A DNA stretch of 64,000 bases, taken from positions 858,869-922,868 of the forward strand of contig NZ_LGCI01000010.1 in the NCBI RefSeq assembly GCF_001281525.1, in the 5' to 3' direction. The translations under genes were made by a program, and so were the position numbers. The notes under the pieces were generated by a model. The model was not told where the DNA came from and ran no database searches. It saw only the letters and a program-made list of their open reading frames with translations. Below are positions 36,121-51,168 of this stretch, one piece after another (the first letter of the stretch is position 1; every line of letters starts with the position of its first letter). This DNA comes from Lysinibacillus macroides. GTDB lineage: Bacteria; Bacillota; Bacilli; Bacillales_A; Planococcaceae.

Positions 36121-36161
36121 TAATATAATTCTCCTTTAATTGTTATTTGTTTAAACTATAT

Positions 36162-36578: not shown

Positions 36579-36798
36579 AACTCTACCCCCTATCTTTAAT
36601 TAACAACGTGCTACACTTTTCTCGTTTTATGAAGCAGTCCGACATATCGCAAGTCGTTTTTGGCACAGTTGCTATTATTAATTGGTTTTATTGTACACTT
36701 CAAAATGTACTTTGTAAACTATTTATTTTACATATTCACTTTTTAGTATATTTAGTAAAGCGTTTAGTGTTATAATCAATAAAAAGGAAGGTGTTATT

Positions 36799-37014
36799 AT
36801 GGAACTAACTACTAGTGAAAAAATCAAAATAATTCTCGGCAGAAAGAATATGTCAATGAGTGATCTAGCCGATGCATTAGGCCAAACTCGCCAAAACTTA
36901 CACAATAAAATGAAGCGAGATAATTTCTCCGAGAAAGAGTTACAAGAAATTGCCGCTGCTTTAAATGTAGGCTTTGAATCATATTTTGTATTAGAAGAAG
37001 GAGAAAAAATTTAA
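36799..37014 (+). CDS. Small XRE-family HTH regulator
   Basis: 71 residues, nearly all a Cro/cI-type helix-turn-helix (MSMSDLADALGQTRQNLHNKMKRDNFSEKELQEIAAAL). AAAGGAAGGTG precedes the ATG, and TATAAT lies just upstream. It is 18 bp before a PemK/MazF-like gene on the same strand, opposite to the rest of the element. It is probably the cognate repressor and possibly the antitoxin of that gene. Confidence 0.8.
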   Translation: MELTTSEKIKIILGRKNMSMSDLADALGQTRQNLHNKMKRDNFSEKELQEIAAALNVGFESYFVLEEGEKI

Positions 37015-37032
37015 TAGTTACGGGGTGGGCTT

Positions 37033-37554
37033 ATGACAATACTTGATACACTAAAAGAAAAATTAGAAGATTTGAAAACTATCGTCCAATCATTCCAAGT
37101 CAAGAAGCAACGAATTTTCATTCATTGGTTAGATCGCCATAACGATTATTTACGCAATGAAGAAACTTACGATTATTCGAAACATCTCGTATATAAGCGA
37201 GGTATGGTTGTAGAAGTTGATTTCGGATTTAATATCGGGGCGGAATATGGCGGACATCATAAAGCCGTCATTCTACATAAAGACAGTGCTCGAGCAAAAT
37301 CCGTCGTTGTTGTGCCTCTTTCATCTGTAAAAGAAGGGCAAACAGTACATAAGCTAGATGCGGATTTAGGCGTCATTGAAAGCTTGAACGATAACAAAGT
37401 AGAGGCATTACTAGGACAGATTACAACGATTAGTAAAATGCGGATTCAACCGAGCACTATTCACCGACTGACAAATGAGCAGCTAGACGAAATTGACAAT
37501 AAAATGGTAGCACGATTTTTAGGGTCAAGCATGAAGAAAAAATTAATGGAATAA
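37033..37554 (+). CDS. PemK/MazF-like toxin-family protein
   Basis: 173 residues. After a helical N-terminus of about 55 residues, the PemK/MazF fold begins YKRGMVVEVDFGFNIGAEYGGHHKAVILHKD, with VVVVPLSS and the C-terminal ALLGQITTISKMRI strand-turn-strand typical of these mRNA interferases. It is paired with an XRE protein rather than a MazE-type AbrB-fold antitoxin. Type II toxin or phage-defence cargo of the satellite is likely; RNase activity is inferred from the family. Confidence 0.75.
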   Translation: MTILDTLKEKLEDLKTIVQSFQVKKQRIFIHWLDRHNDYLRNEETYDYSKHLVYKRGMVVEVDFGFNIGAEYGGHHKAVILHKDSARAKSVVVVPLSSVKEGQTVHKLDADLGVIESLNDNKVEALLGQITTISKMRIQPSTIHRLTNEQLDEIDNKMVARFLGSSMKKKLME

Positions 37555-37687
37555 CTCCGAACAGTTACGCCTATTGACATTTACTTTAATTTTGTTTAAG
37601 ATGTAATAGAAGTAAGCATACTAATACTACCCTTCAAGGTTTCCTTGATTGCGGTCTTTAATTTTATACGGTCACACGACCAAAAAC

Positions 37688-37722
37688 AAAAGCACCCGTT
37701 CATAATTGAGTAGGTGCTTTTG
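37688..37722. terminator. Bidirectional terminator
   Basis: AAAAGCACC pairs with GGTGCTTTT between the rightward toxin-like gene and the leftward small genes. Confidence 0.8.
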
Positions 37723-37733
37723 TCTTGTTCAAT

Positions 37734-37928
37734 TCATTTTTCTTCGTTTAAATACTTGTTAATCTCTTTATATAATTGCCTTATTGGCTTTGTATGCTCT
37801 CCCCAAGCTCGTAAAAGCTCAAGAGCTGCCTCCTCATTCTTATGAGAAAGCTCGGCCAATAAAACGGGTAATCTTGAATGCATTTTCACTAGCTCCGGAT
37901 CAATGGGAAATACTTTCTTATCGTACAT
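37734..37928 (-). CDS. Hypothetical small protein
   Basis: 64 residues starting MYDKKVFPIDPELVKMHSRL after GAGGAGTGG. Helical, charged, no known motif. It lies 20 bp downstream of a small HTH-like gene, with which it is probably cotranscribed. Confidence 0.6.
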   Translation of the reverse strand: MYDKKVFPIDPELVKMHSRLPVLLAELSHKNEEAALELLRAWGEHTKPIRQLYKEINKYLNEEK

Positions 37929-37948
37929 AACACCACTCCTCATACTGT

Positions 37949-38143
37949 TTATTCTTGATTAAGCTTTTCAATGTATGGGTATTTTTCATGGAAGAAGGCA
38001 ATCGGAATCTTGCCTCGCTCCGTCCAATAGCCTTGCTTTTTAAGCTCCTCGTTTAACGCCTGCACTCTCGCTTGAGCTGTTCGTAAAGAGCCTAAACCTA
38101 AAATTTCTTTGACTTCATGCGTCGTATAGAATAGTTTTGACAT
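37949..38143 (-). CDS. Small HTH-like DNA-binding protein
   Basis: 64 residues. FYTTHEVKEILGLGSLRTAQARVQALNEEL resembles the winged helix of MerR/excisionase-like proteins, and GKIPIAFFHEKYPYIEKL could be the wing. AGGAG lies ten bases before ATG 38143. It follows the Rha-like gene by 13 bp. Regulatory role inferred from the fold only. Confidence 0.6.
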   Translation of the reverse strand: MSKLFYTTHEVKEILGLGSLRTAQARVQALNEELKKQGYWTERGKIPIAFFHEKYPYIEKLNQE

Positions 38144-38156
38144 TGCCTTCACGCTC

Positions 38157-38909
38157 CTAGATTAATAGCTTTAGCAGTTCGCTAAATTTAGAAGGATAGT
38201 AGAGAGGTTGCGTTTCTTTTGGGTTGCGAGGACTAATAGCGTTATCGCCGTAATATCGTCCTGCTTCCGTTAAAGATTTGAACTCTCGTAGACCGCCTTT
38301 TGTACTCGGTCGCTCTTTAATTTCAAGTAAGCCTAATTCAATGAGTTTGGTATTTGCTTTGGCTGCCGTTAAAGGTACGTCGTGAGCTTTCAACAGCTCC
38401 GTGAGCGACTTTTTCAACTCTTCCTCAACATACTGCGGTAAATGATTGGTCGGTACGCCATGAGCCTTGTGTACGTCCGTAAGCATTCGTATTTTAGAAG
38501 GCTCGTCCACTCGTAAAATGTCAGCCGAGTATTTCATGCCGATCAAGTGCATTTCAAACTGTTCAATGTTTGGCGTTGTTGGGAACTGCTTGAGTTGCCG
38601 CTCCATTGCGTTGAAGCGTTCAATGTAAGCTACGGCGAACTGCGTACCCTTTTCGCCGGTCATGCGAGTAGCGTAAAGCTCACAACCTTTTTTCGTTAAT
38701 TGGTAGCAAGGTTGTTGTTTGTTTTGACTGTTTGTGTAAGATGTTTCAATGAAATAGGACTGCTCAATTTTGGTCTGTCCTCCTAAATGGCTAATAACAT
38801 TGCGGATGTCACGCAAAACTTCTTTATGTTCACGTCCAACCATCTCTGCAACTTCTAAACTGCTAAAGTAAGAGGACGGCTGAATTTTCAGCTCTCCTAT
38901 AATAGTCAA
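38157..38909 (-). CDS. Rha family phage regulatory protein / antirepressor
   Basis: 250 residues. The N-terminal Rha domain (about 15-100) reads SLEVAEMVGREHKEVLRDIRNVI with SYTNSQNKQQPCYQLTKKG and AYIERFNAME. The C-terminal half resembles the antirepressor-type domain of phage KilAC/Ant proteins (IRMLTDVHKAHGVPTNHLPQYV). Such proteins modulate lysis-lysogeny decisions. The start is uncertain: the TTG at 38909 lacks a clear Shine-Dalgarno, while AGGAGAG lies inside the frame about 13 bases downstream. Confidence 0.75.
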   Translation of the reverse strand: MTIIGELKIQPSSYFSSLEVAEMVGREHKEVLRDIRNVISHLGGQTKIEQSYFIETSYTNSQNKQQPCYQLTKKGCELYATRMTGEKGTQFAVAYIERFNAMERQLKQFPTTPNIEQFEMHLIGMKYSADILRVDEPSKIRMLTDVHKAHGVPTNHLPQYVEEELKKSLTELLKAHDVPLTAAKANTKLIELGLLEIKERPSTKGGLREFKSLTEAGRYYGDNAISPRNPKETQPLYYPSKFSELLKLLI

Positions 38910-39020
38910 TAAAGATTGGAGCTATGAGATATTCGATTCATATAATACGTGCCCACAATTTTGTGGTAGCCTCCTCTCTACTTACTTACTTCTACCCTAT
39001 TACAAAATATCCTGCACAAA

Positions 39021-39056
39021 CTGCTAAAGGACGCCCTTCATTTAGCAGGTACGTCC
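39021..39056. other. Possible H-type RNA pseudoknot upstream of the Rha-like gene
   Basis: CTGCTAAA (39021-39028) pairs with TTTAGCAG (39041-39048), and the enclosed GGACG (39029-39033) pairs with CGTCC (39052-39056). The two stems interlock. They lie in the 154-bp gap between two leftward genes, which holds no gene I can support. Confidence 0.4.
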
Positions 39057-39063
39057 CTTTAAC

Positions 39064-39480
39064 TCATATAGCACATAGTGTTTTTCTTCGCCAATTCTTT
39101 TCCGTAATGACATGATTCAAGCAAGCTGCTAAAACCGGAGCTACCTCCCTATCCATTACAAAGCCGCTTTGCTTCCATTTGTGGTAAGCCTTACGCTCTT
39201 TTGGATAGAGCAGGGAAAGGGCCTCTTTAAAAATTTCCTTATCTTTTTCAACAATTCGCTTGTCATGCTTATATTTAGCCTCAAGCTCTTCCAAGGCAAT
39301 AACGTGTTTTTCCAGGTCCGGAGTCGCTTTATAAATCTTACCTAGCTTTGAGTCAAAAATGGAATGAGCGTATTTAATTTTCGAGTCCAACTCCATGCGA
39401 CGGCTCGCATAATGCTCCTCAATCGCTTTTAGCCTCTGATCCGTGAATAAATAACGTGTCATTTCTTCATAATCGTACAT
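39064..39480 (-). CDS. Hypothetical helical protein
   Basis: 138 residues, highly charged and helical (YASRRMELDSKIKYAHSIF, then HVIALEELEAKYKHDKRIVEKDKEIF), with a basic C-terminus. Not recognised. GAGGACC precedes the ATG. It lies 18 bp downstream of the 127-residue gene in the leftward operon. Confidence 0.6.
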   Translation of the reverse strand: MYDYEEMTRYLFTDQRLKAIEEHYASRRMELDSKIKYAHSIFDSKLGKIYKATPDLEKHVIALEELEAKYKHDKRIVEKDKEIFKEALSLLYPKERKAYHKWKQSGFVMDREVAPVLAACLNHVITEKNWRRKTLCAI

Positions 39481-39498
39481 AGTAAGGTCCTCGCTTTC

Positions 39499-39882
39499 CT
39501 ATTTCCCTCTTTGCTGCAACCTAGCGGAAATATCTATTGCAGGTTTAGGCTTTGGCTCTCGCTCTAGTTCAAAAATTAAATAGTACGGCAGCTTTCCCAA
39601 ACATTCGGCTACTCTGATAAATAGGGCGTTGGTTGATTGACCGTCACGAATGAGGTAATTGTATAGCTCTACTTCGTCCCAAAGCTCCATACGCCCTTGT
39701 ATTAGCTTGAATACATTTACGGCTTTACGGCATACCTTTTGAGCCTCTACAACTTGTAAAAAGCGTTGCTGCTCACCTAATTGAGGAGCTTTCGTCGAGC
39801 CTTTTAAAATGTTACGAGCCTCTTTTAATTGAACGGTAAAAAGCTCGGTCAACTCTTCATTAGTTGGATAGTGAAATTCCAT
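39499..39882 (-). CDS. Hypothetical protein
   Basis: 127 residues starting MEFHYPTNEELTELF, chosen because GGGAGGC lies just upstream; a longer frame to 39945 lacks such a site. Helical and soluble with a Pro-rich C-terminal stretch (LEREPKPKPAID). Not recognised. Part of the leftward operon. Confidence 0.6.
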   Translation of the reverse strand: MEFHYPTNEELTELFTVQLKEARNILKGSTKAPQLGEQQRFLQVVEAQKVCRKAVNVFKLIQGRMELWDEVELYNYLIRDGQSTNALFIRVAECLGKLPYYLIFELEREPKPKPAIDISARLQQRGK

Positions 39883-39945
39883 AGCCCTGCCTCCCAATAA
39901 GCAAAATGAGAGGGGAAAGACTCGAAGCCTCTCCCCCATAAACAA

Positions 39946-40662
39946 CTAGCTCCAAAGTGATTGAGATTCTTGAGGCGTAGAGCCTGCACTCGGTTGCCCG
40001 TGATCGCTGCCCCACGATTCTTTAGTAATTGCTGCTTGAAGGTCTTTTGTATTTCGCTCTAAAGCCATGAATTGAGCAGAAATTGCCCCAAGAGCTTTAG
40101 TCGTTTCTTGCTCTAGCTCACGATAGGCCTTGTCTGCGTCCGTTAAAAGCTCTTTTTCCGCCGCTTGTTGTAAACCACTTAAGAAGCTACGGTAATTTCG
40201 CATATTCATAGCATGTTGGCTTTGAGCGTTATCGCTATCATTAGCAGACGGCTTCCCTTCCATTGCAAGCTCTGTAAATTCGTGAAGGTTATCCATGAAA
40301 GCTTGAAGCATTTGAGTATCGCCCGAAGCTAAAATCTCACCTTTTAGATTTTCCAAAGCTGCACTATTGCCCTTTGCTTGTGAAATACGGCTCTTTAAAA
40401 TGTTCGCCTTGTACGTTAATACTGCAACCTCTTCCGCCGAAATAGTACGGTTTTTCTTTGGTTTAGCTGCTGCAAGCTTTTCTTGAAGAGCCTTAATTTC
40501 TGCTTGTTGCTCCTCCTGCCAATACTTTAATTGAGCGTTTACGTGCTCCGAAGCCTCTTGCATTTTCTTATAAGCTTCTCCTGGCTTGTACACCTCTTTA
40601 TATTTGACGATAGCTCCTTTAACACTGTCTAAATAAGCATTGCCTTCTCGATATGAACGCAT
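39946..40662 (-). CDS. Hypothetical coiled-coil protein
   Basis: 238 residues, mostly coiled coil (QLKYWQEEQQAEIKALQEKLAAA; YRELEQETTKALGAISAQF) with a polar, Gly/Ser/Gln-rich tail (GSDHGQPSAGSTPQESQSLWS region). It is shaped like a phage scaffold or structural accessory protein, but no family is recognised. GGAGAGAGC precedes the ATG. It lies directly after the gene with the GNQNARKHG motif. Confidence 0.6.
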   Translation of the reverse strand: MRSYREGNAYLDSVKGAIVKYKEVYKPGEAYKKMQEASEHVNAQLKYWQEEQQAEIKALQEKLAAAKPKKNRTISAEEVAVLTYKANILKSRISQAKGNSAALENLKGEILASGDTQMLQAFMDNLHEFTELAMEGKPSANDSDNAQSQHAMNMRNYRSFLSGLQQAAEKELLTDADKAYRELEQETTKALGAISAQFMALERNTKDLQAAITKESWGSDHGQPSAGSTPQESQSLWS

Positions 40663-40675
40663 TTCGCTCTCTCCT

Positions 40676-40990
40676 TTATGAATGAATTTTTACTTTTTTT
40701 AATGGTAGGCCGAGTAAATGTGAAGCTGCTTCGGCTTTTGGTCCGATAATAATGAAACCGTCCTCCAAAAGCTCCCACTCGCCTTTAAGGAAACGGATCG
40801 CTACACCTTTGTGGTAAGCGGTCAATATTAAATCGTCGCCTTCGATACGTTGCCCGTGCACAACTTTTGAAAAGAAGCCGTGCTTTCTAGCGTTTTGGTT
40901 GCCGTATTTTGGGTGAGTGTTTCCTTTATTTCCGATTGACTCTGTATTACCTGGTAAAAAACGACCTCGCCCGTCCCGTTGTGCCTTCAT
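40676..40990 (-). CDS. Small protein with GNQNARKHG motif (small-terminase-like N-terminus)
   Basis: 104 residues from ATG 40990, preceded by AAAGAGGTG. The segment GRFLPGNTESIGNKGNTH followed by PKYGNQNARKHGFFSK is seen near the N-terminus of many phage small terminase subunits and related DNA-binding phage proteins. The rest (GQRIEGDDLILTAYHKGVAIRF) is not recognised and no full TerS domain is visible. If it is a packaging protein, it would recruit the helper's large terminase; this is a weak inference. Confidence 0.5.
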   Translation of the reverse strand: MKAQRDGRGRFLPGNTESIGNKGNTHPKYGNQNARKHGFFSKVVHGQRIEGDDLILTAYHKGVAIRFLKGEWELLEDGFIIIGPKAEAASHLLGLPLKKVKIHS

Positions 40991-41025
40991 AATGCCCGAG
41001 CACCTCTTTCCGAGTTGGTTTTGTA

Positions 41026-41162
41026 GCGTTGCGTCGAATGTTAGGGTATGCAAGGGTGCTTGCGTTGCACAATAGCTTATACCTCAAGGGCTCTCACGCT
41101 TTAAAGCATGGGACAAAATGAAGTTTTCTACTATGCAACGCAACGCCCATTTAATGCAACGC
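41026..41162. repeat. Cluster of TGCAACGC / GCGTTGCA motifs
   Basis: Perfect copies at 41062-41069 (inverted), 41134-41141 and 41155-41162. Partial copies lie at 41026-41033 (GCGTTGCG) and 41140-41146. The perfect palindrome ACGCTTAAGCGT (41159-41170) abuts them. They lie upstream of the small-terminase-like gene. Confidence 0.55.
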
Positions 41163-41492
41163 TTAAGCGTCCCGACGTCCCCTAATTTGTACATCAAGCA
41201 AACCGATATTTAAGTGAACGAGATATTTAAGTTGATACAAACATTTTTCCAAATAAAGCTTCTCTGTTAATTCGGTTAACTGCTTTTTCGAATATGTGCT
41301 TGCAAATTCAGCTTTTAAAGGCTTCCCTAGCTTGTGTAAATCATCAAAAATTTGCTTCTGCCAAAGGTTTTTAGAGTAGTCCAATTGGTCAATTGCACGG
41401 CGTAAATCTTTTTCCTTTGGGTGCTTCGGAAGCATATTTAAAACATGGTTAATAAAATTTTCAGCATCTTTATAATGCGTGTCCACAAACAT
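41163..41492 (-). CDS. Hypothetical helical protein
   Basis: 109 residues from ATG 41492 (MFVDTHYKDAENFINHVLNM), with AAAGGGGCG upstream. Helical and basic, ending in an Arg-rich tail. Not recognised. It starts 2 bp after the stop of the zinc-ribbon gene, so it is in the hub-zinc ribbon-hypothetical operon. Confidence 0.6.
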   Translation of the reverse strand: MFVDTHYKDAENFINHVLNMLPKHPKEKDLRRAIDQLDYSKNLWQKQIFDDLHKLGKPLKAEFASTYSKKQLTELTEKLYLEKCLYQLKYLVHLNIGLLDVQIRGRRDA

Positions 41493-41494
41493 AA

Positions 41495-41728
41495 TCAACG
41501 CCCCTTTTCTTTAAACCATTTTTTGATTGATTGAAGTCGACTCTTTTTAGGAGGCACACCTTTTAATCGCTCAAGCTCCTGCTTTACAACTTCTCGAGGC
41601 TTTCCTACAAGGTCCTTAACGCCGTCATAGCAACTAACACATAACAGTAATTGCTTTGTTTCACCTATCATTTTACGGGTGTTATGATCCGTTAGATAAA
41701 GACCACACGCTTCACATTTTTTACTCAA
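41495..41728 (-). CDS. Small zinc-ribbon protein
   Basis: 77 residues with two CxxC knuckles (MSKKCEACGLYLTD and LLCVSCYDGVKDL, about residues 4-7 and 31-34), then a basic helical tail (KSRLQSIKKWFKEKGR). It abuts the hub gene with no gap. Likely a small nucleic-acid- or protein-binding factor; family not recognised. Confidence 0.65.
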   Translation of the reverse strand: MSKKCEACGLYLTDHNTRKMIGETKQLLLCVSCYDGVKDLVGKPREVVKQELERLKGVPPKKSRLQSIKKWFKEKGR

Positions 41729-42697
41729 TTAGCTCACCACTTTCAATTTAAGGTCCATTGTGTGAACGCCGCCGTCCCAATCATGCGTACACTCCTCTAC
41801 TAAAAAAGCTTCACGAACGCCGATTTTCTCAATAACAACGTAAATCATATTGCCGGCTTTAACGCCCCAATGCCCTAAACATTTAATTGAAAGGTCCTTC
41901 GTAGCTTGATTTTTTACCGCAAGCAGGGCTTCAAGTGACGCTTTAATTTGAGCGTCCGTCATGTTCTCGTCAACTTTTTTGAAGTATTGGAGCTGCCCCC
42001 ACTTTGCGATATTGCTAGAATCTTGAGCTATATAGACCTTACGTTTCGAAGTTTCCTCGTCGTCTTTAACGAGCTTAATTCGGTTATAGGTGTCCTTATC
42101 AATGGACTCCGTAAACTCAAAGCCATACATGAGGCTCTCTTCGCCTAAATACCAAGCGGACGGATCAATCAAAAGTTGGTCAATCCGTTTCAAAATTAAG
42201 CTGCCAAATTCATCACGGAGAACGAAGAGTCTATTATTCGCAATTAAAGTTGCGTCTAAATATTGGCACACCACGTCAAAAGCGTTTTTATCGTCCTCCA
42301 CTTTAGCCGGTACAACATAGCCGGTATCTTCAAAAGCTCCTATTTTAGCTCCTGCAAGTCCGGCTATATACTTTATCGCTGCCGTCGCCGTCATGGCTTT
42401 CAAAACAAAAGTGTCTTTATACATCAAGTAACGAAGTTCGTCGTAAGCCTTCACTTTCAACTCGGAGCTCTCGTTAATAACTGATTCAAACACGTAGCCG
42501 TAAAAAATACCCGTTGAGCCGTGCTTTACTCGAATAACTGCCCCTTTTTTAATTGGGTACTTCAACGGCTCCTCTATGATAAAGACGGCTTCAAGAACAC
42601 TAGCTTTTGCTATCCTTGAAGTTTTAAAATTCACGCTGCTAACAGGCATTTCTAAAACATTTCCGTCCCGGTTATCTAGTAAAATCTCTAAACTCAT
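41729..42697 (-). CDS. Satellite-encoded XkdQ-like tail hub (baseplate) protein
   Basis: 322 residues, colinear over the full length with the XkdQ-like protein at 60189-61151. Shared segments include IFYGYVFESV / IFYGFVFTKK, YDELRYLMYKDTFV / YDQLRYFKNKDTYV, DKDTYNRIKLVKDDEE / DENTYNKIKLIREDKK, VYIAQDSS / IYIAQDGS and MDLKL near the end. XkdQ/gpD-type proteins form the central hub beneath the tail tube. It overlaps the tape measure gene by ATGA, with no XkdP-like gene between them, unlike the prophage. Structural role by homology. Confidence 0.85.
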   Translation of the reverse strand: MSLEILLDNRDGNVLEMPVSSVNFKTSRIAKASVLEAVFIIEEPLKYPIKKGAVIRVKHGSTGIFYGYVFESVINESSELKVKAYDELRYLMYKDTFVLKAMTATAAIKYIAGLAGAKIGAFEDTGYVVPAKVEDDKNAFDVVCQYLDATLIANNRLFVLRDEFGSLILKRIDQLLIDPSAWYLGEESLMYGFEFTESIDKDTYNRIKLVKDDEETSKRKVYIAQDSSNIAKWGQLQYFKKVDENMTDAQIKASLEALLAVKNQATKDLSIKCLGHWGVKAGNMIYVVIEKIGVREAFLVEECTHDWDGGVHTMDLKLKVVS

Positions 42698-45375
42698 TGT
42701 GAATACACTCCTTGAGCCGAACGTGCTACCTCTTCACTGATTGAATTTTCAATTTTAGCGATAACATCATGTACGTCCACATCATTATTAATCGTAGTGC
42801 CTTCAAGTCTAACCGTAGGATTCAAGGTAACCTGCACTTGACGAATAGCTTCTCTCGTAGCCATTTCTTTAAATAGCTCAAGGTCCTCGTCTGCAATGTT
42901 AATCTCGTCCTCGATTTTTCCGATTTTATCAAGCTTACCGCCCGTTGGATTGCTCGAGCCTTTCCCTCCTGCACCTTTAGAGGCACCGTCCAAGCCGTCC
43001 GCATTAAATGCCGGTACATTTCCTAGAAGGCTCTCCATATCAAGCCCCGGTGAAGCTCCTGGCTGCTCTTGTCCGTTCTTTTTCGGAATAAGCCCTTGCA
43101 CTTTATCAACCAAGCCATTAAGTGAGTCGCTCACGGCCATAGTGCCCGAGTAAGCCCAATCCATAGCACTATTGACGTTATCCATGTAATTGCCTAGCTC
43201 CATTCGAGGTAGGCTTACAACGCCTCTATCGCTTGTTGGGGCTTCGAGGCTAGACGCCATATTCGCAATTTTATTGCCGACGCTTGAGCCACTCATGGAA
43301 AGCTTTCCGACCTTTCCTAAATCGATTCCAGGAATTTGATTAAGGGCGTCCACAATCCAATTGATTGCTCCAATTGCCATATTGGCACCGGAAACAAAGG
43401 CATTTCCGATTGCATTAGCTACCGAGTCAATTTGCATACCCATAGCAGCCATATTGTTCATAACCATTTGAGCCATATCGTAGAAAAGCTTTTTAATGGC
43501 GTAAACCGGATCAATGAAAAGATTGATTAAAAACTCGGCAAACGAAAGGAAGAAATTCGCTACGTTCGCTACATTGTTATAAATGTAAGTGAATAGAGCC
43601 GCAAAGAGCCCCACAATAAAGCTAATAACCGTTGCCGTTTGCTCTCCCCAAATAATGAGAGCCGTGATAACCGCCACAATCGCAATAATGAAAGCCGCTA
43701 AAATCCAAGTACCTGGGAAAGCCCAAATAGCTGCATTAAGTCCCCATTGAGCCGCCGTTTGTGCAAAAGTAGCTCCCGTTGCAAACATCATGTAAGCCCC
43801 GGTAATCGCTAAAGCTGCTGCACGAATACCCTCAATAGCAACCGTTGCCATGGCGATACCTCGATAAACTGCTAGTACGGTCATGTATGCCGTTAATGCA
43901 GCTGCTGCCGTTAAGAAAATCGGTCCAAGTATGCCCCATGTATCGGCAATAAATTGAGCTCCGCTTGAAACCATGCCGTAGCCCCACTCAACTACATCAA
44001 ATAACATGGTTAAGCCTGCAATACCTACGTTTACGCCTGCCATAATGTTATTGGACATAACGGTGAAGGCGTCCGAGTTCACAAAGTCATTGAATCGACC
44101 GAATAGAGGCTCTAAAGCTCGAAGCCCTTTATCCTTCATAATTTGCATTTGCTGCCCAAACGTCATAGGCATTTCAGCGAATTTACGGTTTGTTTCTTCT
44201 GCTGCTGCAAACATGGAATTTTTAATAATGTCCGCCGTAATTTGCCCCTCGGAAGCGAGCTTCTTAATGGAGCCAACGGGTACACCCATATAGTCCGCAA
44301 TGTTCTGTACAATCGGTTGGGCGTTGTCTAAAATGGCGTTCAACTCTTCACCTTGGAGCTTACCTGCTGCCATTGCTTGCGTTAATTGAAGCATGGCCGA
44401 CTCAACGCCGATAACGCTTGTCCCTGCAATGGAGAAGGTTTTATTCAACTGTTCCGTAAAGGCTATAATCTCGTCATTGGAGCTAAACGCTGCCCCGGCT
44501 TGAGCCGCTAATTTTCCGACGGCGTCTGCCGTAGCCGTATAAGAGCCTCCCGTTGCCTGGGCGGAAGCGAAAATTCTTTCTTGAAGCTCTGCCGTCGTTT
44601 GCATACCGTCATTAATGAGGTTAAGACGAGCCTCAATATTGGTTGCGTTGTCAGCTGCTGCAATAAAACTTTTCATACCATTCGTTAAAGCTTGAATGGA
44701 AAGATAGGCTCCGGCTGCTGCTGCAAACATCTTGAAGAAGCTTGAAACTTTCCCTCCGGCTTGTTGGCTTGCGTTCCCTACCTGCTCAATTTCTTCGCCC
44801 AAGTCGTCAACGTCGCCCTCTGCATTGTTAGCGGATCGCTCTAAACGGTCGACCTCTCCCGTTAAATCTCGGATAAGCTGCTCCGTTCGTTCGATTGAAG
44901 CCGTATCAAACTCCATATCGAATTGAGCTCTTGCGTCCAATGCAGAAAGGCGATACTCGGCTTGTTGCATTAGGTCTTGCATACGCTCGAGGTCTTGCGT
45001 GTTAACGTCCACGTCAATCATGGTAGAGAGCTCTCGAAGTCTGCTTAAATTCTGATTGATAACATTTTGAGCCGATTGTAAAGCTCTCGTATTCAATGTT
45101 GCGTCGACTTCGAGCTGCATATCCGTATTAGTCCGGAGTCGACTCAAATCATTCATGAGCTCTTGGACATTTGCACCGGCACTATTGACGGCCGTGTCGT
45201 TTACTCGAATATGGCTTTGAGTGCTAGTCATAGTTCGCATAGTACTTTCTACATTACTGCTTGCATTGTGAAGTTGCTCCATTACTCGAATGGTGTTATT
45301 CATGGAATTGATAACATTCATCAAAGGACCGGTAACGCCGTCGTGCATGGAGAGCCTTGTATCTACTTCTGACAT
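42694..45375 (-). CDS. Satellite-encoded tail tape measure protein
   Basis: 893 residues. N-terminal coiled coil (about 1-215), then GAYLSIQ, a conserved core with AGKLQGEELNAILDNAQ, IADYMGVPVGSIKKLASEGQ, KNSMFAAAEETNRKF, and hydrophobic segments at about 480-620; the conserved C-terminal tail has EDLELFKEMATREAIR. All but the N-terminus aligns with the prophage tape measure at 61814-64000. The GAYLS motif is at residue 222 here but 93 there, so the extra length is N-terminal coiled coil. Tape measure length sets tail length in phages. AAGGAAGGTG precedes the ATG. Confidence 0.9.
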   Translation of the reverse strand: MSEVDTRLSMHDGVTGPLMNVINSMNNTIRVMEQLHNASSNVESTMRTMTSTQSHIRVNDTAVNSAGANVQELMNDLSRLRTNTDMQLEVDATLNTRALQSAQNVINQNLSRLRELSTMIDVDVNTQDLERMQDLMQQAEYRLSALDARAQFDMEFDTASIERTEQLIRDLTGEVDRLERSANNAEGDVDDLGEEIEQVGNASQQAGGKVSSFFKMFAAAAGAYLSIQALTNGMKSFIAAADNATNIEARLNLINDGMQTTAELQERIFASAQATGGSYTATADAVGKLAAQAGAAFSSNDEIIAFTEQLNKTFSIAGTSVIGVESAMLQLTQAMAAGKLQGEELNAILDNAQPIVQNIADYMGVPVGSIKKLASEGQITADIIKNSMFAAAEETNRKFAEMPMTFGQQMQIMKDKGLRALEPLFGRFNDFVNSDAFTVMSNNIMAGVNVGIAGLTMLFDVVEWGYGMVSSGAQFIADTWGILGPIFLTAAAALTAYMTVLAVYRGIAMATVAIEGIRAAALAITGAYMMFATGATFAQTAAQWGLNAAIWAFPGTWILAAFIIAIVAVITALIIWGEQTATVISFIVGLFAALFTYIYNNVANVANFFLSFAEFLINLFIDPVYAIKKLFYDMAQMVMNNMAAMGMQIDSVANAIGNAFVSGANMAIGAINWIVDALNQIPGIDLGKVGKLSMSGSSVGNKIANMASSLEAPTSDRGVVSLPRMELGNYMDNVNSAMDWAYSGTMAVSDSLNGLVDKVQGLIPKKNGQEQPGASPGLDMESLLGNVPAFNADGLDGASKGAGGKGSSNPTGGKLDKIGKIEDEINIADEDLELFKEMATREAIRQVQVTLNPTVRLEGTTINNDVDVHDVIAKIENSISEEVARSAQGVYSQ

Positions 45376-45449
45376 ATTCTCACCTTCCTTAAATTAAAAT
45401 TCGAAGCTATTTAATGGCTGCAATCGCTGCGTTCATGAGTAGCTTTAAT

Positions 45450-45713
45450 TTAAGCCGATTTCTTTCGCATTTTCGTTATGAACTTTTCAGCTTTAGCACG
45501 GTTGAAAAGTAAAGGGAAAAGTAGGTCATTTTGCTGAAGCATAACGAATACCGGCTCTTTACAGTGAGCGCAATCCTTAACGCCGTTGATCGCCTTACTG
45601 CCTACTCGTAAACTATTTAAAGTTCGGCAGCAAGGACATGTAAAGTTAAGGTGGAACTCTCCTTGTTCTATTGAAAGATGGCTTATTGTTTTATGTTTGA
45701 ATGTTTTTTTCAT
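45450..45713 (-). CDS. Zinc-ribbon protein upstream of the tape measure
   Basis: 87 residues from ATG 45713 (MKKTFKHKTISHLSIEQGEF) after AAAAGGAGCG. Cysteines are in FTCPCCRTLNSL and KDCAHCKEPVF, giving a four-Cys ribbon. Possible nucleic-acid-binding regulator; not recognised further. It sits between the iteron region and the tail cassette. Confidence 0.65.
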   Translation of the reverse strand: MKKTFKHKTISHLSIEQGEFHLNFTCPCCRTLNSLRVGSKAINGVKDCAHCKEPVFVMLQQNDLLFPLLFNRAKAEKFITKMRKKSA

Positions 45714-45794
45714 AGTTTTCGCTCCTTTTATAGGGCGAGGCGTCACCGGCGTTTGCAATTTCCCAAGTACAAATTTTTCTAGTCTTTTTAAGGT

Positions 45795-46044
45795 GGGAAC
45801 TTATAACCCTTTCAAAACTTTATTTATACGATTTAGGCGGTATAGGTAGCGTATATCTTGCCTAATCTTAATAAATATAAATTTATAAGTTTATAAGTTC
45901 CCATGTTCCCAATACACTGTGAATCGTTGATATTACTGTATTCAAAGGTGGGAACTTATACGGGAACTTATAATTTTTACGTGTTCCCGTGTTCCCAATT
46001 TTCTAAGAGCGGGAACTTATTTCTAGTGCGAGTAAGTTCCCACC
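45795..46044. repeat. Iteron cluster, candidate replication origin of the element
   Basis: Direct GGGAACTTAT(A/T) copies at 45795, 45950, 45962 and 46011; inverted copies at 45892-45902 and 46033-46041; GTTCCC half-sites at 45905, 45983 and 45991. The 348-bp gap (45714-46061) has no gene and is AT-rich between repeats. It directly follows the primase-helicase gene. Confidence 0.7.
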
Positions 46045-46061
46045 TAATTCAGTGCAGTTTT

Positions 46062-48653
46062 TTAATGCGTAGGGCGTGAGAATATTTTCACTTGTCCATA
46101 TGCTTTCGTTCGTTTTTTGGCTTGAGAGCTCTCCTGAATCCATCCCGTTTGGCGAATTAATTTTGTGATTTCACGGGCTTCATAAGGACTGATTCGAGAT
46201 TTCGAGTCTAATCCAAGTGCTTCAAACATAATTTCTTGAGAGCTTATACGAGTCGGAATAACTAATTCTTTAAAATCTTCAAATTCGGAATAAGGCACAT
46301 AATCATGATTATTTTTGTACCATTCATAACGCTCCTCACTCGAAAGATCATTATAGTTACCCTCTGCACTGCCATTTATGTGATTTATCCACGCAATACG
46401 CTTTTCTTTAGTCCAAAATGCGTTAGAATCAAAATCTATTGGTCTTGGTTTATTGAGATAGAAGAGTACATCTGTGAGGCGTGAATCCGTCATAGTATGC
46501 TGGCGTTGCTGCTCTTCTGCTAACTCTTTCAATTCCTTACTCATAAAGTGAGGCTTCAATAGATTAGACTTTAACCAATTTTCATAGACTTCCGCCCAAA
46601 CTTGTTGAACATCATCTATTGTTAAATCACCAGGGTGCTTTATCCGTTTACTTTCATCACAGACTATGGGTATGAAACGTCGATTTCCCGTCCCATCTGA
46701 CAAAAACTCACTTTCATTAGTAGTTCCGATAAATCCACAACTACGAGGTACGTCTTTTGCTTTACGTGAATAAGCCCCTCTGTAACTATCAACTTGCGAG
46801 GTAATGAAGCGTTTTACTTCTTCAATTTCTGATTTTCGTAAAGCTGCAAGTTCCCCTAGCTCAATTATCCATTTGGACTCAAGAATCTCGGCTGCTTTTT
46901 TAGTATCAAATGATGTCAGACTATCTGTATGCCATTTGTCTTTTATTGCAAGCTTAGAAGCAATTAAAGACTTTCCTGCACCTTGTTTCCCTACGAGAAT
47001 CAAAGCCTCGTCGAATTTACAACCTGGCTCCCATAACCTCTTCAATAAACCAGTTAAAAAATGTTTTGTTGCTAATCGCACGTATTGGCAGTCTTCTGCA
47101 CCCATATAATGAATGAACAAGCTCTCCGCCCTCTGTATGCCGTCCCAAGGTTTACTTAAAATAATGTCTTTTATAGGATGAAATGTTTGTTCTTGAATTA
47201 ACTTATCTATTACAAGAAGCCCCTTCGAGAACGGCAGACTAATATCAAAAAGCTTTTCAATCTCTAATAGTAAAAAATTCGAATCCTCATCAGTCCACTG
47301 AACAAATTGGTTGGATTGTAACTGTTGATTTTGTCGCCAGGGGACATTTGCCACCCTTATAGCTCGATTACTAAATTCATCAAATCTAAAAGCGTGACTG
47401 TACAAAGTTTTAATAATTCGTTCTATGTTCGAAGTTGTAGGTTCGACTTGCCCTTTTTTGTTACAACTTAAATCATTGAGCAGCTTATCCATACTAGACA
47501 AAGCGTCATCATCATTTGGTAAATCTTCAAAATCGTCAAAAGCCGACGTATTTAGATTGGATTTCTTAAGTTCTAACCTTACCTTTTGACATCGTTCTTC
47601 TTTACAAGAATTCAACCATTCAATGAACGCCACTTGAGAAGGTTTTCGATTGACCGGCGTCCCTTCCTTCGAGTCCTCGTCTAGCTCATGGAATAAGTGC
47701 AAGCGTACAAGGTCGAAACTATTCACAAGTTGACCGCTTACCGGGTCCGTCCCATGATGTGAATAAGCGAAAAGCCCGTCCTCGTAAAGAATAAGTCCGC
47801 CCGTTGTTGAGCCGTGAACGTATGTATAACGTCCTGCCCCTGCCGTCTCGTACTTATCCGATAAGAAAGTTTCGATTGCTTCTTCAATTGTGTAAGTACG
47901 GCAAAATGCTCCAACCATTCCCGGCTTCTCTAAAGGGTTTCCTTGCTTGTCTGCCATTTTCTTACGGCTTTCTTGCTGCCTGCTTGACTCCGGCCATTCG
48001 TGCGGATCACGCCAATCATTATATAAAGAAAGAATGTCGTCCGGATTTAACCATTCTGCGTCCTGGTACTCGAAGAAGTATTCACCGTCGGCACTTGTTG
48101 AAGGCCAATACATTAAACGGTGCGGTTGATAAGTTGTATCGTCAAAGAAGTCAATTCCGAACTGCTCCGCAACTTTTTTACTTACTGCAACGTACTCCTC
48201 CGGCGAAACCGGTCGAGCTAAAGGAATGATTAATCGTAAACGAGGAGTCGAGCTTGAATGCTTATGCGTCGAATAAACTAAACAAGAGTTGTCGAATACA
48301 AGTGAAACGCCGTCCCAAAAGTCGCCTTTAATGAAGTCTGCGTCAAGCGTAAGAGCTTGCCTCCAAGCCACCGAGTCCGCCTTTCGTTTTCCGCCTTTCA
48401 AGCTCCCAAAAACGAATCCGCCAACGTCTTTGATCTCGTCTTGAGTTGCCTTCGTTAAAGCTTTATATTCCGCAACCGTTTCCGGCGTACGAGTTGTTTG
48501 ACTAACTTTTTTGGCGAAGTCCGACCAAAGCATTTCAGTGTTTTTCCAAGTTGTCGCCTTCCTGCTTTGGGCAGTAGCTACGTGAAGCGTACCGTCGTAT
48601 TTAAAGTTCTTGAATGAACTATTTTCCTTTGGTATACTATTGTTATTAATCAA
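46062..48653 (-). CDS. Primase-helicase (AEP-like primase plus VapE/SF3-like ATPase)
   Basis: 863 residues. The N-terminal part looks like an archaeo-eukaryotic primase: LTLDADF (about 102-108), YSTHKHSSSTPRLRL (about 127-141) and QPHRLMYWPS. A VapE/D5-type helicase follows with Walker A VGKQGAGKS (GKQGAGKS at 555-562), the Walker-B-like WIIELGEL and GFIGTTNE sensor. Such proteins drive autonomous replication of satellites and small phages. The iteron cluster next to it is the probable binding site. The only gene upstream in the gap is preceded by a copy of the 20-bp element repeat. Confidence 0.87.
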   Translation of the reverse strand: MINNNSIPKENSSFKNFKYDGTLHVATAQSRKATTWKNTEMLWSDFAKKVSQTTRTPETVAEYKALTKATQDEIKDVGGFVFGSLKGGKRKADSVAWRQALTLDADFIKGDFWDGVSLVFDNSCLVYSTHKHSSSTPRLRLIIPLARPVSPEEYVAVSKKVAEQFGIDFFDDTTYQPHRLMYWPSTSADGEYFFEYQDAEWLNPDDILSLYNDWRDPHEWPESSRQQESRKKMADKQGNPLEKPGMVGAFCRTYTIEEAIETFLSDKYETAGAGRYTYVHGSTTGGLILYEDGLFAYSHHGTDPVSGQLVNSFDLVRLHLFHELDEDSKEGTPVNRKPSQVAFIEWLNSCKEERCQKVRLELKKSNLNTSAFDDFEDLPNDDDALSSMDKLLNDLSCNKKGQVEPTTSNIERIIKTLYSHAFRFDEFSNRAIRVANVPWRQNQQLQSNQFVQWTDEDSNFLLLEIEKLFDISLPFSKGLLVIDKLIQEQTFHPIKDIILSKPWDGIQRAESLFIHYMGAEDCQYVRLATKHFLTGLLKRLWEPGCKFDEALILVGKQGAGKSLIASKLAIKDKWHTDSLTSFDTKKAAEILESKWIIELGELAALRKSEIEEVKRFITSQVDSYRGAYSRKAKDVPRSCGFIGTTNESEFLSDGTGNRRFIPIVCDESKRIKHPGDLTIDDVQQVWAEVYENWLKSNLLKPHFMSKELKELAEEQQRQHTMTDSRLTDVLFYLNKPRPIDFDSNAFWTKEKRIAWINHINGSAEGNYNDLSSEERYEWYKNNHDYVPYSEFEDFKELVIPTRISSQEIMFEALGLDSKSRISPYEAREITKLIRQTGWIQESSQAKKRTKAYGQVKIFSRPTH

Positions 48654-48698
48654 GGTTTTATCCTCCTTTCAATAAACTGCAAAACATATATCTGCAAT

Positions 48699-48718
48699 CC
48701 TTGTACACGCCGCCAAGC
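48699..48718. repeat. Internal copy of the element repeat
   Basis: CCTTGTACACGCCGCCAAGC is identical to bases 49909-49928. It lies between the primase gene and the small gene upstream of it. Confidence 0.75.
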
Positions 48719-48744
48719 CGTGTATTTTTTTTGTCCTTTTTGGG

Positions 48745-49014
48745 CTACCATTCTCTAGTAATCTCGTCTATTACATTTAAAGCGTCGGAAGCCTTGTAGA
48801 ATCGCTTACGGCTTTTTTTACGTTCAATTGCTTTCATGTAAGGATGATTTAGTATGTTCTCCTCCAAAAAACGCTTCGACATTCCCGTTAATAAACTCAA
48901 ACGCTCGACGTCGCAAAACCAAATTTGAGCTGCTAAAGTATCCTCAATTTTTTGCTCAAACTTTTCTTGAATGGCTTTTTCATCAATTTGAATTTCAATT
49001 TTTGACGCGATCAC
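48745..49014 (-). CDS. Hypothetical protein, possible HTH
   Basis: 89 residues from GTG 49014, 2 bp after the excisionase-like stop, with GGAGGTG overlapping that gene's end. ERLSLLTGMSKRFLEENILNHPYMKAIERKKSRKRFYKASDAL resembles a winged-helix/excisionase-like domain with a basic wing. Probably an early regulatory protein. Role not known. Confidence 0.6.
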   Translation of the reverse strand: MIASKIEIQIDEKAIQEKFEQKIEDTLAAQIWFCDVERLSLLTGMSKRFLEENILNHPYMKAIERKKSRKRFYKASDALNVIDEITREW

Positions 49015-49016
49015 TC

Positions 49017-49220
49017 CTAAACACCTCCGTTCTGTTCGCCACGAGTCCATGCCTCAATAACATCACGGTTAAATAAGATTTTTCCACGTACTTTAAAGTG
49101 CGGCACCTCGCCATCACGAACCATTTTATAAATCGTTGCCGTTGATACTCCTAGCAAACTTGAAACCTCTGCAACAGTTAAAGTAATGACTTTTTGGGTT
49201 GTTACGGTTACGCTTGTCAA
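49017..49220 (-). CDS. Excisionase-family HTH protein
   Basis: 67 residues from TTG 49220 after AAAGGAGG. ITLTVAEVSSLLGVSTATIYKMVRDGEVPHFKVRG then FNRDVIEAWTRG is the excisionase (HTH_17/MerR-like) pattern. It is the first leftward gene, divergent from the repressor across the operator region. It could act as Xis and/or as the first lytic-side regulator of the satellite. Confidence 0.8.
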   Translation of the reverse strand: MTSVTVTTQKVITLTVAEVSSLLGVSTATIYKMVRDGEVPHFKVRGKILFNRDVIEAWTRGEQNGGV

Positions 49221-49240
49221 ATTAATTCCTCCTTTACTTA

Positions 49241-49359
49241 TAACTGATAGTTAGCAATAAAATATAATTTCTTACTAACTGTTAGTGAATTATAAAACAA
49301 TTCTTACTAAAAACAATGTATTGTAAACTAAAATATTTAAAACTGTACTAATTGTTAGT
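49241..49359. promoter_or_regulatory. Three-operator switch region
   Basis: Three 13-bp dyads: TAACTGATAGTTA (49241-49253), ACTAACTGTTAGT (49274-49286) and ACTAATTGTTAGT (49347-49359). They lie in the 184-bp gap between the divergent repressor and excisionase-like genes, as in phage immunity regions. Confidence 0.75.
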
Positions 49360-49404
49360 AAAGTAGTACAATTATCAAAAATAATAGTAAAAGGGAGAAA
49401 CTTT

Positions 49405-49887
49405 ATGAACGATGCGAAAAATTTTGGCGTTTTCCTAAAGAATGCTAGGGAAGAGATTGGTCTCACCTTGTCTCAATTAGGAGATTTAATAGGCTATTCA
49501 AATCCTTACTTATCTCAAATCGAAACGGGTAAACGAAAAAACCCACCTTCCCCGGAGCTACTGAAAAAGTTATCCGAGGCAATGGGAAACGTTACTTATG
49601 CAGGTTTGCTTGACGCAGCAGGCTATCACGAATTAGCTAAAAATGAGAGTATGAAACAACTTTATGAAGATTTCGGAGGAGATAATGAATTAAGCGTAAT
49701 TGAATTACGGAAAAAGGTAGAGGATTTACAAAAAACTTCGGATTTAAAAAAATTACTCAGTGAAGAAACTTTATGGAATGAAAAAATAGCACCAAGGTAT
49801 AACGGTCACAAATTAACCGAGCAAGACCGTAAAAGGATTCTCAAAATGTTAGAGATACTTTTCCCGGAGTATCAAGATAAAAAGTAA
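49405..49887 (+). CDS. Repressor with XRE HTH, no peptidase domain
   Basis: 160 residues. The N-terminal cI-type HTH (VFLKNAREEIGLTLSQLGDLIGYSNPYLSQIETGKR) is followed by a helical, charged C-terminus (LSVIELRKKVEDLQKTSDL) with no S24 autocleavage site or Ser-Lys pair. Derepression by RecA-driven self-cleavage is therefore not expected, as in PICI repressors that respond to a phage protein. AAAGGGAGA precedes the ATG. It is oriented toward int and separated from it by 60 bp. Confidence 0.8.
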   Translation: MNDAKNFGVFLKNAREEIGLTLSQLGDLIGYSNPYLSQIETGKRKNPPSPELLKKLSEAMGNVTYAGLLDAAGYHELAKNESMKQLYEDFGGDNELSVIELRKKVEDLQKTSDLKKLLSEETLWNEKIAPRYNGHKLTEQDRKRILKMLEILFPEYQDKK

Positions 49888-49902
49888 ATGCGTTCCAACC
49901 TT

Positions 49903-49928
49903 ATCTGACCTTGTACACGCCGCCAAGC
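49903..49928. repeat. Right inverted copy of the element repeat
   Basis: ATCTGACCTTGTACACGCCG then CCAAGC; this is the inverse complement of 35752-35778 except for one extra base and one substitution. It sits just before int. Confidence 0.75.
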
Positions 49929-49947
49929 ATGAAGGGACGATACAATA

Positions 49948-51168
49948 ATGGAACTGCATAAAACTAAAGAGCAGCACATTTATTATTATTTTAATGCTGC
50001 TAAAGAAAAGTGCTTTATGTACCGTTATCGCTATACGGATGAAATAACGGGCAAGCAAAAAGAAAAGAAAAAAATTGGCTTTAAAACAGAAAAAGCAGCA
50101 CTGAAAGCCCTTTTAGAATTAAAGGCTACAATGCTGCGTGGTGAAACAAAACTTATTGAAAATGATAACTTAACTATATCACAATGGCTAGATACTTGGT
50201 ACGAAACAAATGCTCATAAATGGAAAGCAACTACACGGAAACAACGGGAAATGGCTATTCGATTAAATATGAAGCCATTACTAGGTCATTATAAGCTCCA
50301 AAAGCTAGATCGGTTAACTTATCAGAAAGTATATATTCGAGAATTAGAAAAAACATACAAGTCGAGCACAGTAAAATTACTTCATAACTTATTTAAAATA
50401 GCGATTAATGCAGCAGTTGAAGAAGAGATTTTACAACGGAATCGTTTTACGAAAGTATCTTTCACAACGAATGAAGAGCATGAGGTTGAAGAAATTGAAA
50501 ACTACCTTACGCCTGCCGAGCTTAAGCTTATGCTTGAAACTGCGAAACAGACCGAGCACATCACGAATTATAGCTTCCTTCTTACAATTGCTTATACAGG
50601 TATGCGTAGAGGAGAGGCTTGTGGACTCCAATGGAAAAACATTGACTTCAAAAATAATACGATTACTGTTGAGCGAACTCGTGACAATAAGGGAGCAAGA
50701 CCACCAAAGACTAAAAACAGTTACCGCACTATTTTAGTTGACGAGCTTGTTATGGCTCAACTAAAAAAATATCAAACATGGTGTAAACAGATCATGCTCG
50801 CTTTTGGTATACGTTATTCTGAAAATTCTTTCGTGTTTATTTCTTACCAAACTGCGGAGCCGATTACTGACAGTGGTTTGCTATACATGCTACGACGTGT
50901 ACTTGAAGCAGCAGGGCTAGTTAATATTGTTGAAGAGAACGGCAAGGAAAAAGTTATTCCGAAATGTACGCTCCACGGTTTACGTCACACACACGCTACT
51001 ATCCTTTTAAATAATGGTCAAAATGTTAAGGTTATTGCCGAGCGATTGGGTAACACGCCTGCTATGATTTATGAAATTTATGGTCATGTTTTAAAGGAAT
51101 TAGAGCAGGAATCAGTAGCGGTATTTAGTAACAGTTTAGATGCCAATAGGGCAACTTCTAGGGCATAA
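49948..51168 (+). CDS. int: Tyrosine recombinase (integrase)
   Basis: 406 residues. An N-terminal AP2-like arm-binding domain (about 10-65, YRYTDEITGKQKEKKKIGF) precedes a SAM-like core-binding domain (about 75-170) and the catalytic domain. Arg220 is in TGMRRGEACGL, His343-Arg346 in LHGLRHTHAT, and the Tyr nucleophile is probably 378 in IYEIYGHV. The usual third His/Trp position reads N in RLGNTP. It ends about 50 bp before the right att core and overlaps two arm-type repeats. Confidence 0.93.
   Translation: MELHKTKEQHIYYYFNAAKEKCFMYRYRYTDEITGKQKEKKKIGFKTEKAALKALLELKATMLRGETKLIENDNLTISQWLDTWYETNAHKWKATTRKQREMAIRLNMKPLLGHYKLQKLDRLTYQKVYIRELEKTYKSSTVKLLHNLFKIAINAAVEEEILQRNRFTKVSFTTNEEHEVEEIENYLTPAELKLMLETAKQTEHITNYSFLLTIAYTGMRRGEACGLQWKNIDFKNNTITVERTRDNKGARPPKTKNSYRTILVDELVMAQLKKYQTWCKQIMLAFGIRYSENSFVFISYQTAEPITDSGLLYMLRRVLEAAGLVNIVEENGKEKVIPKCTLHGLRHTHATILLNNGQNVKVIAERLGNTPAMIYEIYGHVLKELEQESVAVFSNSLDANRATSRA

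Follow-up and report, generated by a model that had tools for sequence, protein, structure and literature searches.

A Putative PICI-like Phage Satellite of Lysinibacillus macroides That Carries Tape Measure and Baseplate Hub Genes

RESULTS

A Small att-flanked Element at rpsD Encodes Two Tail Proteins

The window analyzed here, a 64,000-nucleotide stretch of the 4.87-Mb genome of Lysinibacillus macroides (handle G000; contig NZ_LGCI01000010.1, positions 858,869 to 922,868), contains a short integrated element that carries genes for two components of a phage tail, a tape measure protein (TMP) and a baseplate hub. The element spans positions 35563–51241 and is bounded by a 22-nt exact direct repeat, GTAGAGTACTACTCTCGTTAAT, present on the forward strand at 35563–35584 and 51220–51241 (spacing, 15,657 bp), with just these two exact copies genome-wide. 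The left copy lies at the 3′ end of rpsD (open reading frame (ORF) 34936–35583; Pfam Ribosomal_S4). The 893-aa TMP is encoded on the reverse strand at 42694–45375 (Pfam TMP_3, PF20155, E = 2.3e-46; PHROG 1068, E = 5e-186) and is followed on the same strand, at 41729–42697, by a 322-aa hub of the YqbQ/XkdQ type (Pfam YQBQ, PF24032, E = 4.8e-103; PHROG 400, E = 2.1e-86). Both ORFs are intact and full length, overlap by 4 nt, and have ribosome-binding sites that appear good by eye. The original prediction, made from the letters of the window alone, had described two intact overlapping genes at 41729–45375 within a 15.7-kb att-flanked element at rpsD that lacked recognizable head genes. This description was borne out, except that the interval delimits the two-gene cassette and not the whole element.

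The element holds 22 non-overlapping ORFs of at least 60 aa, of which 19 were scanned against PHROGs and Pfam (the other three are 63–71 aa). No match to a capsid, portal, large terminase, sheath, or tube protein was obtained among these 19 ORFs, and the match of a 238-aa ORF (39946–40662, reverse strand), which has no convincing family, to a head-tail adaptor was at chance level (E = 0.054). The sole SPP1-type portal of the genome sits in the adjacent prophage. The right end of the element is occupied on the forward strand by a tyrosine integrase (49948–51168; Pfam PF00589, E = 8.8e-25) and a CI-type repressor (49405–49887; Pfam HTH_3, E = 3e-13), and an integrase at one end beside a repressor is the gene arrangement of phage-inducible chromosomal islands (PICIs). 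The element has its own replication gene, for an 863-aa VapE-like primase/helicase (46062–48653, reverse strand; Pfam PF05272, PHROG 256), and a packaging-related gene, for a 125-aa protein (40676–41053, reverse strand) in which a stretch of 40 residues (26–65) resembles a small terminase, this being a weak call (PHROG 1889, E = 5.8e-6; no Pfam match). One published account gives a size range of about 10–15 kb for PICI-like elements (PMC11364771). As judged from gene content, the best explanation of the element is that it is a PICI-like phage satellite without capsid genes.

The Pair Groups with a Myophage Lineage Other than That of the Adjacent Prophage

The element is adjoined by a 54-kb prophage flanked by a 16-nt repeat, located at 51231–51246 and 105333 (13333–13348 of locus L005). 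The first 11 nt of this repeat are also the last 11 nt of the right repeat of the satellite, and the integrase of the prophage is 44% identical to that of the satellite. Given the shared 11-nt repeat core, the satellite and the prophage appear to have integrated one behind the other at a single rpsD site, for which, on this arrangement, they may compete.

The reverse strand of the prophage encodes a TMP (61814–64000, continuing to 64060), an XkdP-like protein (61144–61821; PHROG 380), and a hub (60189–61151; PHROG 400), in that order, and XkdP has no counterpart in the satellite, as had been noted originally. The pair had also been said to align with its prophage counterparts along most of its length. 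The homology is real but distant: the two TMPs are 32% identical over 552 columns (satellite residues 157–673) and the two hubs 34% identical over 315 columns, values that mark the prophage copies as distant homologues. Only five ORFs of the element (Rha, hub, TMP, a 101-aa gene, and the integrase) have homologues in the prophage at E ≤ 0.01.

The nearest relatives of the satellite hub, 50–58% identical and located at 11 loci of 11 genomes, belong to another myophage lineage, and a search of 32 genomes of the genus gave hubs at 51–53% identity in G002, G005, G010, G016, and G020. Among the nearest named relatives are Geobacillus phage phiOH2 (hub, 58.6%; TMP, 40.7%) and Psychrobacillus phage PVJ1 (hub, 55.2%; TMP, 42.8%), which are phage records of 38 and 53 kb, respectively, as compared with 15.7 kb for the satellite. 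The adjacent prophage, treated in the original prediction as the counterpart of the pair, was ruled out as the source of the cassette by sequence identity and by the gene-tree comparison that the same prediction had proposed, the pair being of foreign lineage and grouping with the second type of myophage. A TMP/XkdP/hub module without recognized sheath or capsid genes within 20 kb was observed at locus L044 of G005; this is perhaps an interrupted or unusual tail locus.

TMP Genes Recur in Sibling Satellites

Hub matches at E ≤ 1e-15 were found in 50 of the 261 genomes of the family. The gene order is TMP-XkdP-hub at all 43 places in other family genomes where the hub is at least 31% identical (weaker places, at 23–28%, fall outside this count), and the pair without XkdP in the window is therefore unique among the loci compared. 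XkdP was the next gene after TMP at 73 of 82 TMP loci, a set that comprises ORFs of at least 350 aa plus that of G144, excludes the window and L160 (a copy of L147), and is not made up of independent entries, since some phages are present both as genomes and as IMG/VR contigs. A 253- or 137-aa ORF lies between TMP and hub at two further loci, and the remaining seven (L058, L074, L075, L093, L118, L146, and L147) lack any homologue of sheath, tube, XkdP, or hub.

The satellite integrase has matches at E ≤ 1e-90 in 34 of the 261 genomes, at 40 places; upstream flanks were compared, against the proteins of the window and of a few relatives, for 37 of these, the other three being the two of the window and that of G028, and some flanks end at contig ends. 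A 138-aa protein of the window satellite (39064–39480, reverse strand) is the homologue of a 209-aa protein of sibling elements (32% identity over 117 aa, E = 7e-14; E = 1.2e-11 in a second search). The 209-aa protein has matches in eight of the 261 genomes, seven of which were counted together with two IMG/VR contigs; the eighth, G250, was left out, its weak match (E = 5.8e-4) lying inside a 555-aa ORF. A TMP is present in five of the nine elements that share the 138/209-aa protein, namely those of the window, G028 (L. sphaericus OT4b.31), G144 (Rummeliibacillus sp. POC4, of the same family), and the contigs L146 and L147. Neither a TMP by blastp nor a PhageMin_Tail TMP was found in the examined flanks of the other four, G017 (Lysinibacillus sp. 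FJAT-14745) and G031 (L. xylanilyticus SR-86), which like G028 are of the genus of the window, G024, and G241 (Ureibacillus galli Re31, of the same family). The original prediction suggested that relatives with the same two-gene cassette be sought: the TMP recurs in this way, but the TMP-hub pair was found only in the window.

The elements of G028 (bounded by a 21-nt flanking repeat, 21.2 kb apart), L146, and L147 share a common gene order, consisting of integrase, repressor, a DnaD-like protein (weak match), an ERCC4 nuclease, a small-terminase-like helix-turn-helix (HTH) protein (weak match), and then 143-, 209-, 277-, and 111/130-aa proteins followed by TMP. The TMP that comes after the 277-aa protein or its homologue is of the myophage type in G028, L146, and L147. 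By contrast, the 277-aa homologue of G144 is immediately followed by a TMP of 1337 aa, which matches PhageMin_Tail and PHROG 1533 and is 45% identical to that of Parageobacillus phage vB_PtoS_NIIg3.2, the best phage among the matches listed; from the name of this phage and the family, we take the G144 protein to be a siphophage-type TMP. The examined stretches of G028, G144, L146, and L147 showed no homologue of tube, sheath, hub, or head proteins, as assessed by homology to two local types of myophage.

Directly upstream of TMP in three of these siblings is the gene for the 111/130-aa protein (L146, 8752–9087; L147, 9697–10032; L058, the G028 locus, 8724–9116), which among the loci compared is confined to the G028, L146, and L147 satellites. 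The predicted fold of the 111-aa form is a three-helix bundle (mean pLDDT, 86) with no match in the PDB at E ≤ 0.001, and the protein is a candidate for a role in chaperoning or selecting the satellite TMP. The 209-aa protein has a poor predicted fold (pLDDT, 65.5).

A single satellite-only clade of TMPs was not supported: the tree requires 4 changes as compared with a shuffled mean of 4.9 when five rows are labeled (G000, G028, L146, and the other element type of G007 and G009). L147 stands outside this tree, its copy L160 having been left out, and was compared by blastp. TMPs without sheath, tube, XkdP, or hub homologues also occur in elements of other types, outside the five of nine, at L074 and L075 (G007 and G009) and at L093 (G143). 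In the L074/L075 type, the TMP is 758 or 907 aa long and is accompanied by no homologue of a tube, sheath, or head protein; the G007 element measures about 16 kb by direct repeat, and L074 contains a gene resembling HK97 gp10 and neck proteins. At L093, a 625-aa TMP (8204–10245) lies near genes that by eye are replication-relaxation- and FtsK-like, and a 54-aa ORF after it resembles the start of an XkdP-type protein. In the G028 satellite, TMP is followed by a gene for a 611-aa NERD/Mrr-like protein (L058, 12409–14244; weak Pfam matches; PADLOC PDC-M29B, E = 8.3e-6 over 60 residues), which is possible defense cargo. A search of viral contigs with the primase returned a single, distant contig (L187), in which no TMP was matched.

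Sibling TMP Alleles Appear to Be Exchanged with Phages, and One Is under Purifying Selection

Comparison of L146 with L147 matched twelve proteins before TMP, which are 60–93% identical (integrase, 92%; ERCC4 protein, 93%; 111-aa protein, 85%; 209-aa protein, 82%), and the TMPs themselves are 62% identical. Identity to a phage-contig TMP is 84% for L146 (with L168) and 90% for L147 (with L163). In blastn comparisons of each satellite with its phage contig, similarity was confined to the TMP gene, save for one 48-nt piece in L146/L168. Homologues of portal, minor head, sheath, and tube proteins are present in L168, together with XkdP, hub, and wedge homologues; the last three were also identified in L163, which is a fragment of 9 kb. 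The 40-kb L159, whose TMP stands at 88.6%, additionally has portal, sheath, and tube homologues. Given that DNA similarity is almost confined to the TMP gene, TMP alleles appear to move between phage and satellite as single genes.

The NG86 method yielded a dN of 0.109 and a dS of 0.674 for the L146-L168 TMP pair (dN/dS about 0.16); other codon pairs had a dS of at least 1.5 or none that was computable. When changed codons were polarized with L148, 39 synonymous and 26 nonsynonymous changes fell on the satellite branch and 56 and 24, respectively, on the phage branch. The codon comparison indicates that the satellite TMP of L146 is under purifying selection. The TMP ORF is 735 aa in L146 and L147 as against 729–733 aa in the nearest phage TMPs. 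Because these lengths are nearly equal, satellites in general probably do not carry a TMP in order to change tail length, and what matters may be the identity of the allele instead; the different tail length put forward originally is not favored as a general purpose.

Remaining Genes of the Element

Leftwards from the repressor, the reverse strand encodes two small proteins, one of them an excisionase-like HTH protein by eye (49017–49220; G028 homologue, 55% over 47 aa), then the primase/helicase, a 102-aa ORF that by eye is cysteine-rich (45450–45758; Pfam matches below cut-off), TMP, and hub. Beyond the hub on this strand lie a 77-aa ORF that is zinc-ribbon-like by eye (41495–41728), a 111-aa ORF overlapping it by 4 nt (41163–41498), neither with a family match above cut-off, the 125- and 238-aa ORFs, a 148-aa ORF without a family (39499–39945), the 138-aa protein, a Rha-type regulator/antirepressor (38157–38909; Pfam PF09669, E = 2.1e-28), and further small genes. 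A PemK/MazF-like ORF (37033–37554; Pfam PF02452, E = 1.5e-11) is on the forward strand, with a small ORF that is HTH-like by eye upstream of it (36799–37014). Defense genes near the hub were not supported, PADLOC giving marginal matches (E = 0.0096 and E = 0.0054) for just two of eight window ORFs.

DISCUSSION

A precedent for tail genes in satellites is provided by the phage-inducible chromosomal island-like elements (PLEs) of Vibrio cholerae, which use their own TMP and hub in chimeric tails (Mathur et al., Nature 2026, PMC12987554). According to that paper, the satellite TMP and hub replace those of phage ICP1 in PLE11 virions, the tails of which are about 10 nm shorter, and deletion of tmp lowers transduction by 99.9% for PLE11 and by 96% and 99% for PLE1 and PLE4, respectively. 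PLE11 carries TMP, hub, and a tail assembly chaperone (TAC); the hub, by the same account, is not encoded by all PLEs, and putative tmp genes are indicated in other satellites, including some capsid-forming PICIs (cf-PICIs; its Extended Data Fig. 10).

Because both of these virion components are also encoded by the element in the window, whose host is of another phylum, a PLE-like mechanism is the best explanation, and by this analogy the satellite probably supplies its own TMP and hub for a tail otherwise built from helper parts. The tail would start on the satellite hub and be measured by the satellite TMP, and a helper would supply the tube, sheath, XkdP, wedge, and fiber proteins, so that the two satellite proteins would enter virions. 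The likely helper would be a myophage of the phiOH2/PVJ1 lineage and not the neighboring prophage. The gain would be control over which particle receives a working tail, or escape from interference that targets tails, and not a change of length. Candidates for favoring the satellite's own TMP are the 111/130-aa partner in the siblings and, in the window, the 77- and 111-aa ORFs that follow the hub. Among the effects first proposed for the cassette, hybrid tails are thus the function best supported by the PLE analogy.

Several observations weigh against this interpretation. Hub and TMP_3 searches of the window genome revealed no prophage of the matching lineage and hence no matching helper: the genus search returned no hub there besides those of the satellite and the prophage (37%), and only two TMP_3 domains exceeded the cut-off. 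A TMP-hub pair without XkdP was found once, in the window satellite, and its satellite relatives have TMP without hub. No TAC gene was recognized in the element, nor any homologue of prophage gene 70051–70485, which we take to occupy the usual TAC position. The DnaD-like proteins of L146 and L147 are the lowest of the matched set (60% over 189 aa) and as divergent as the TMPs, so the TMP is singled out by its phage matches and not by low identity. Selection on TMP was measured in the sibling L146 and not in the window copy, which has a long end branch in the TMP tree (0.79); a scan of genome contigs with the window TMP gave no relative, and a scan of viral contigs yielded nothing beyond one contig with identity over 19,214 bp. 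The satellite hub speaks in part for the interpretation: at 50–58% identity overall, it retains 75 of the 90 columns (83%) that do not vary across a non-redundant set of ten phage hubs from its lineage, and some of its changes there are conservative, e.g. W to F and Q to E. When phage hubs of the lineage were left out in turn, nine kept 96–100% of invariant columns and one kept 83%; in a broader comparison with 31 hubs, 19 of 23 invariant columns are preserved in the satellite hub and 96–100% in every one of the 31 left-out phage hubs. On these alignments the hub is constrained, though less tightly than most phage hubs, or specialized, and some relaxation or specialization is possible. An intact and conserved satellite TMP, with the hub optional, was nevertheless found, conservation being clearest in the siblings and less direct for the window copy.

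The same observations bear on whether the pair is debris or cargo, left by recombination with a myophage tail operon in a satellite or in a decayed prophage and maintained by no selection. The loss of XkdP and of all other tail genes, the long TMP branch, the 15 lineage-invariant columns lost from the hub, and the absence of TMP from four of the nine sibling elements are what such a remnant would leave. However, both ORFs are full length with a neat overlap, sibling TMPs stand after the same gene, and the one dN/dS value obtained is low. Moreover, the siblings are not the full prophages that the original prediction would expect as relatives of a deletion remnant, on the evidence that the examined stretches of G028, G144, L146, and L147 lack tube, sheath, hub, and head homologues by comparison with two local types of myophage. 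An origin as debris therefore appears distinctly improbable.

It also seems unlikely that the cassette acts by interference, i.e. that early synthesis or overproduction of TMP and hub spoils the tails of the helper or of rival phages, with neither protein entering satellite virions. Tail assembly is a known target of defense, as illustrated by Tai (PMC11364771) and by Rta of PLE11 (PMC12987554), and a distant TMP could seed dead-end tails. However, the 80-aa Rta is a dedicated inhibitor and not a homologue of a structural protein, and the PLE TMP is needed for transduction (PMC12987554). Conservation of the sibling TMPs and their exchange with alleles 84–90% identical to those of phages also fit working parts better than poisons. 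An alternative in which the proteins do enter virions is that the selected effect concerns DNA ejection, by which TMP-specific superinfection exclusion or host membrane factors would be bypassed, and not assembly. The HK97 TMP acts in genome injection, to go by the title of a study cited in PMC11364771, and allele swapping at near-constant length fits a role in recognition; against this, the need of PLE11 for its own TMP lies at least partly in assembly (PMC12987554). Such an adaptor for entry we regard as very unlikely.

With supply of tail parts by the satellite as the preferred interpretation, a broader proposal can be made tentatively, at somewhat less than even confidence. Satellites of Bacillota would maintain a dedicated TMP slot that is overwritten, gene for gene, by the allele of the current helper. 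The slot would accommodate both contractile and non-contractile tail types, would be accompanied in three siblings by a satellite-only three-helix partner, and in the window satellite would have been extended to TMP plus hub as a pair for tail initiation, the satellite thereby controlling how the tail begins and deciding which virions are infectious.

The principle of a satellite TMP and hub in chimeric tails is already in print for the PLEs, and the paper presents these as the first report, in 2026, of satellite control of tails (PMC12987554). A search of PMC full text, a collection outside which most subscription papers lie, gave no account of a Bacillota satellite carrying TMP together with hub, nor of allele exchange at a TMP slot. 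What is apparently new is the existence of capsid-less Bacillota satellites with a swappable TMP slot, here with a TMP-hub pair. Satellites are known for remodeling capsids and packaging, and the carriage of tail genes is now extended to another bacterial phylum. Sister satellites with matching backbones and with TMPs that match different phages make selection on a satellite-owned TMP testable in soil bacteria, and the TMP allele may hint at which phage helps an orphan satellite.

Among known systems, the window element resembles the PICIs of Gram-positive bacteria, such as the Staphylococcus aureus pathogenicity islands (SaPIs), in being about 15 kb and att-flanked, in having an integrase beside a repressor, a primase, and a small-terminase-like stretch, and in having no recognized head genes. 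TMP and hub have not, to our knowledge, been described in PICIs of this kind. It is unlike cf-PICIs, which encode capsid, portal, and terminase, in that no capsid, portal, or large terminase was recognized among its scanned ORFs. The statement that no described satellite has just this pair is nearly true, PLE11 having a TAC in addition to TMP and hub (PMC12987554). In common with the PLEs, the TMP is encoded by the satellite, the hub is optional, the homologues are distant from those of the helper, and the TMPs fall into different sequence groups. The PLEs have a Vibrio host, the lytic helper ICP1, and a TAC, and their tail proteins have been found in virions, whereas the window satellite has a Bacillota host and is known from its genes. 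The sibling TMPs that share 84–90% identity with phage-contig alleles, and the siphophage-type TMP of another sibling, further set these satellites apart from the PLEs as described in print.

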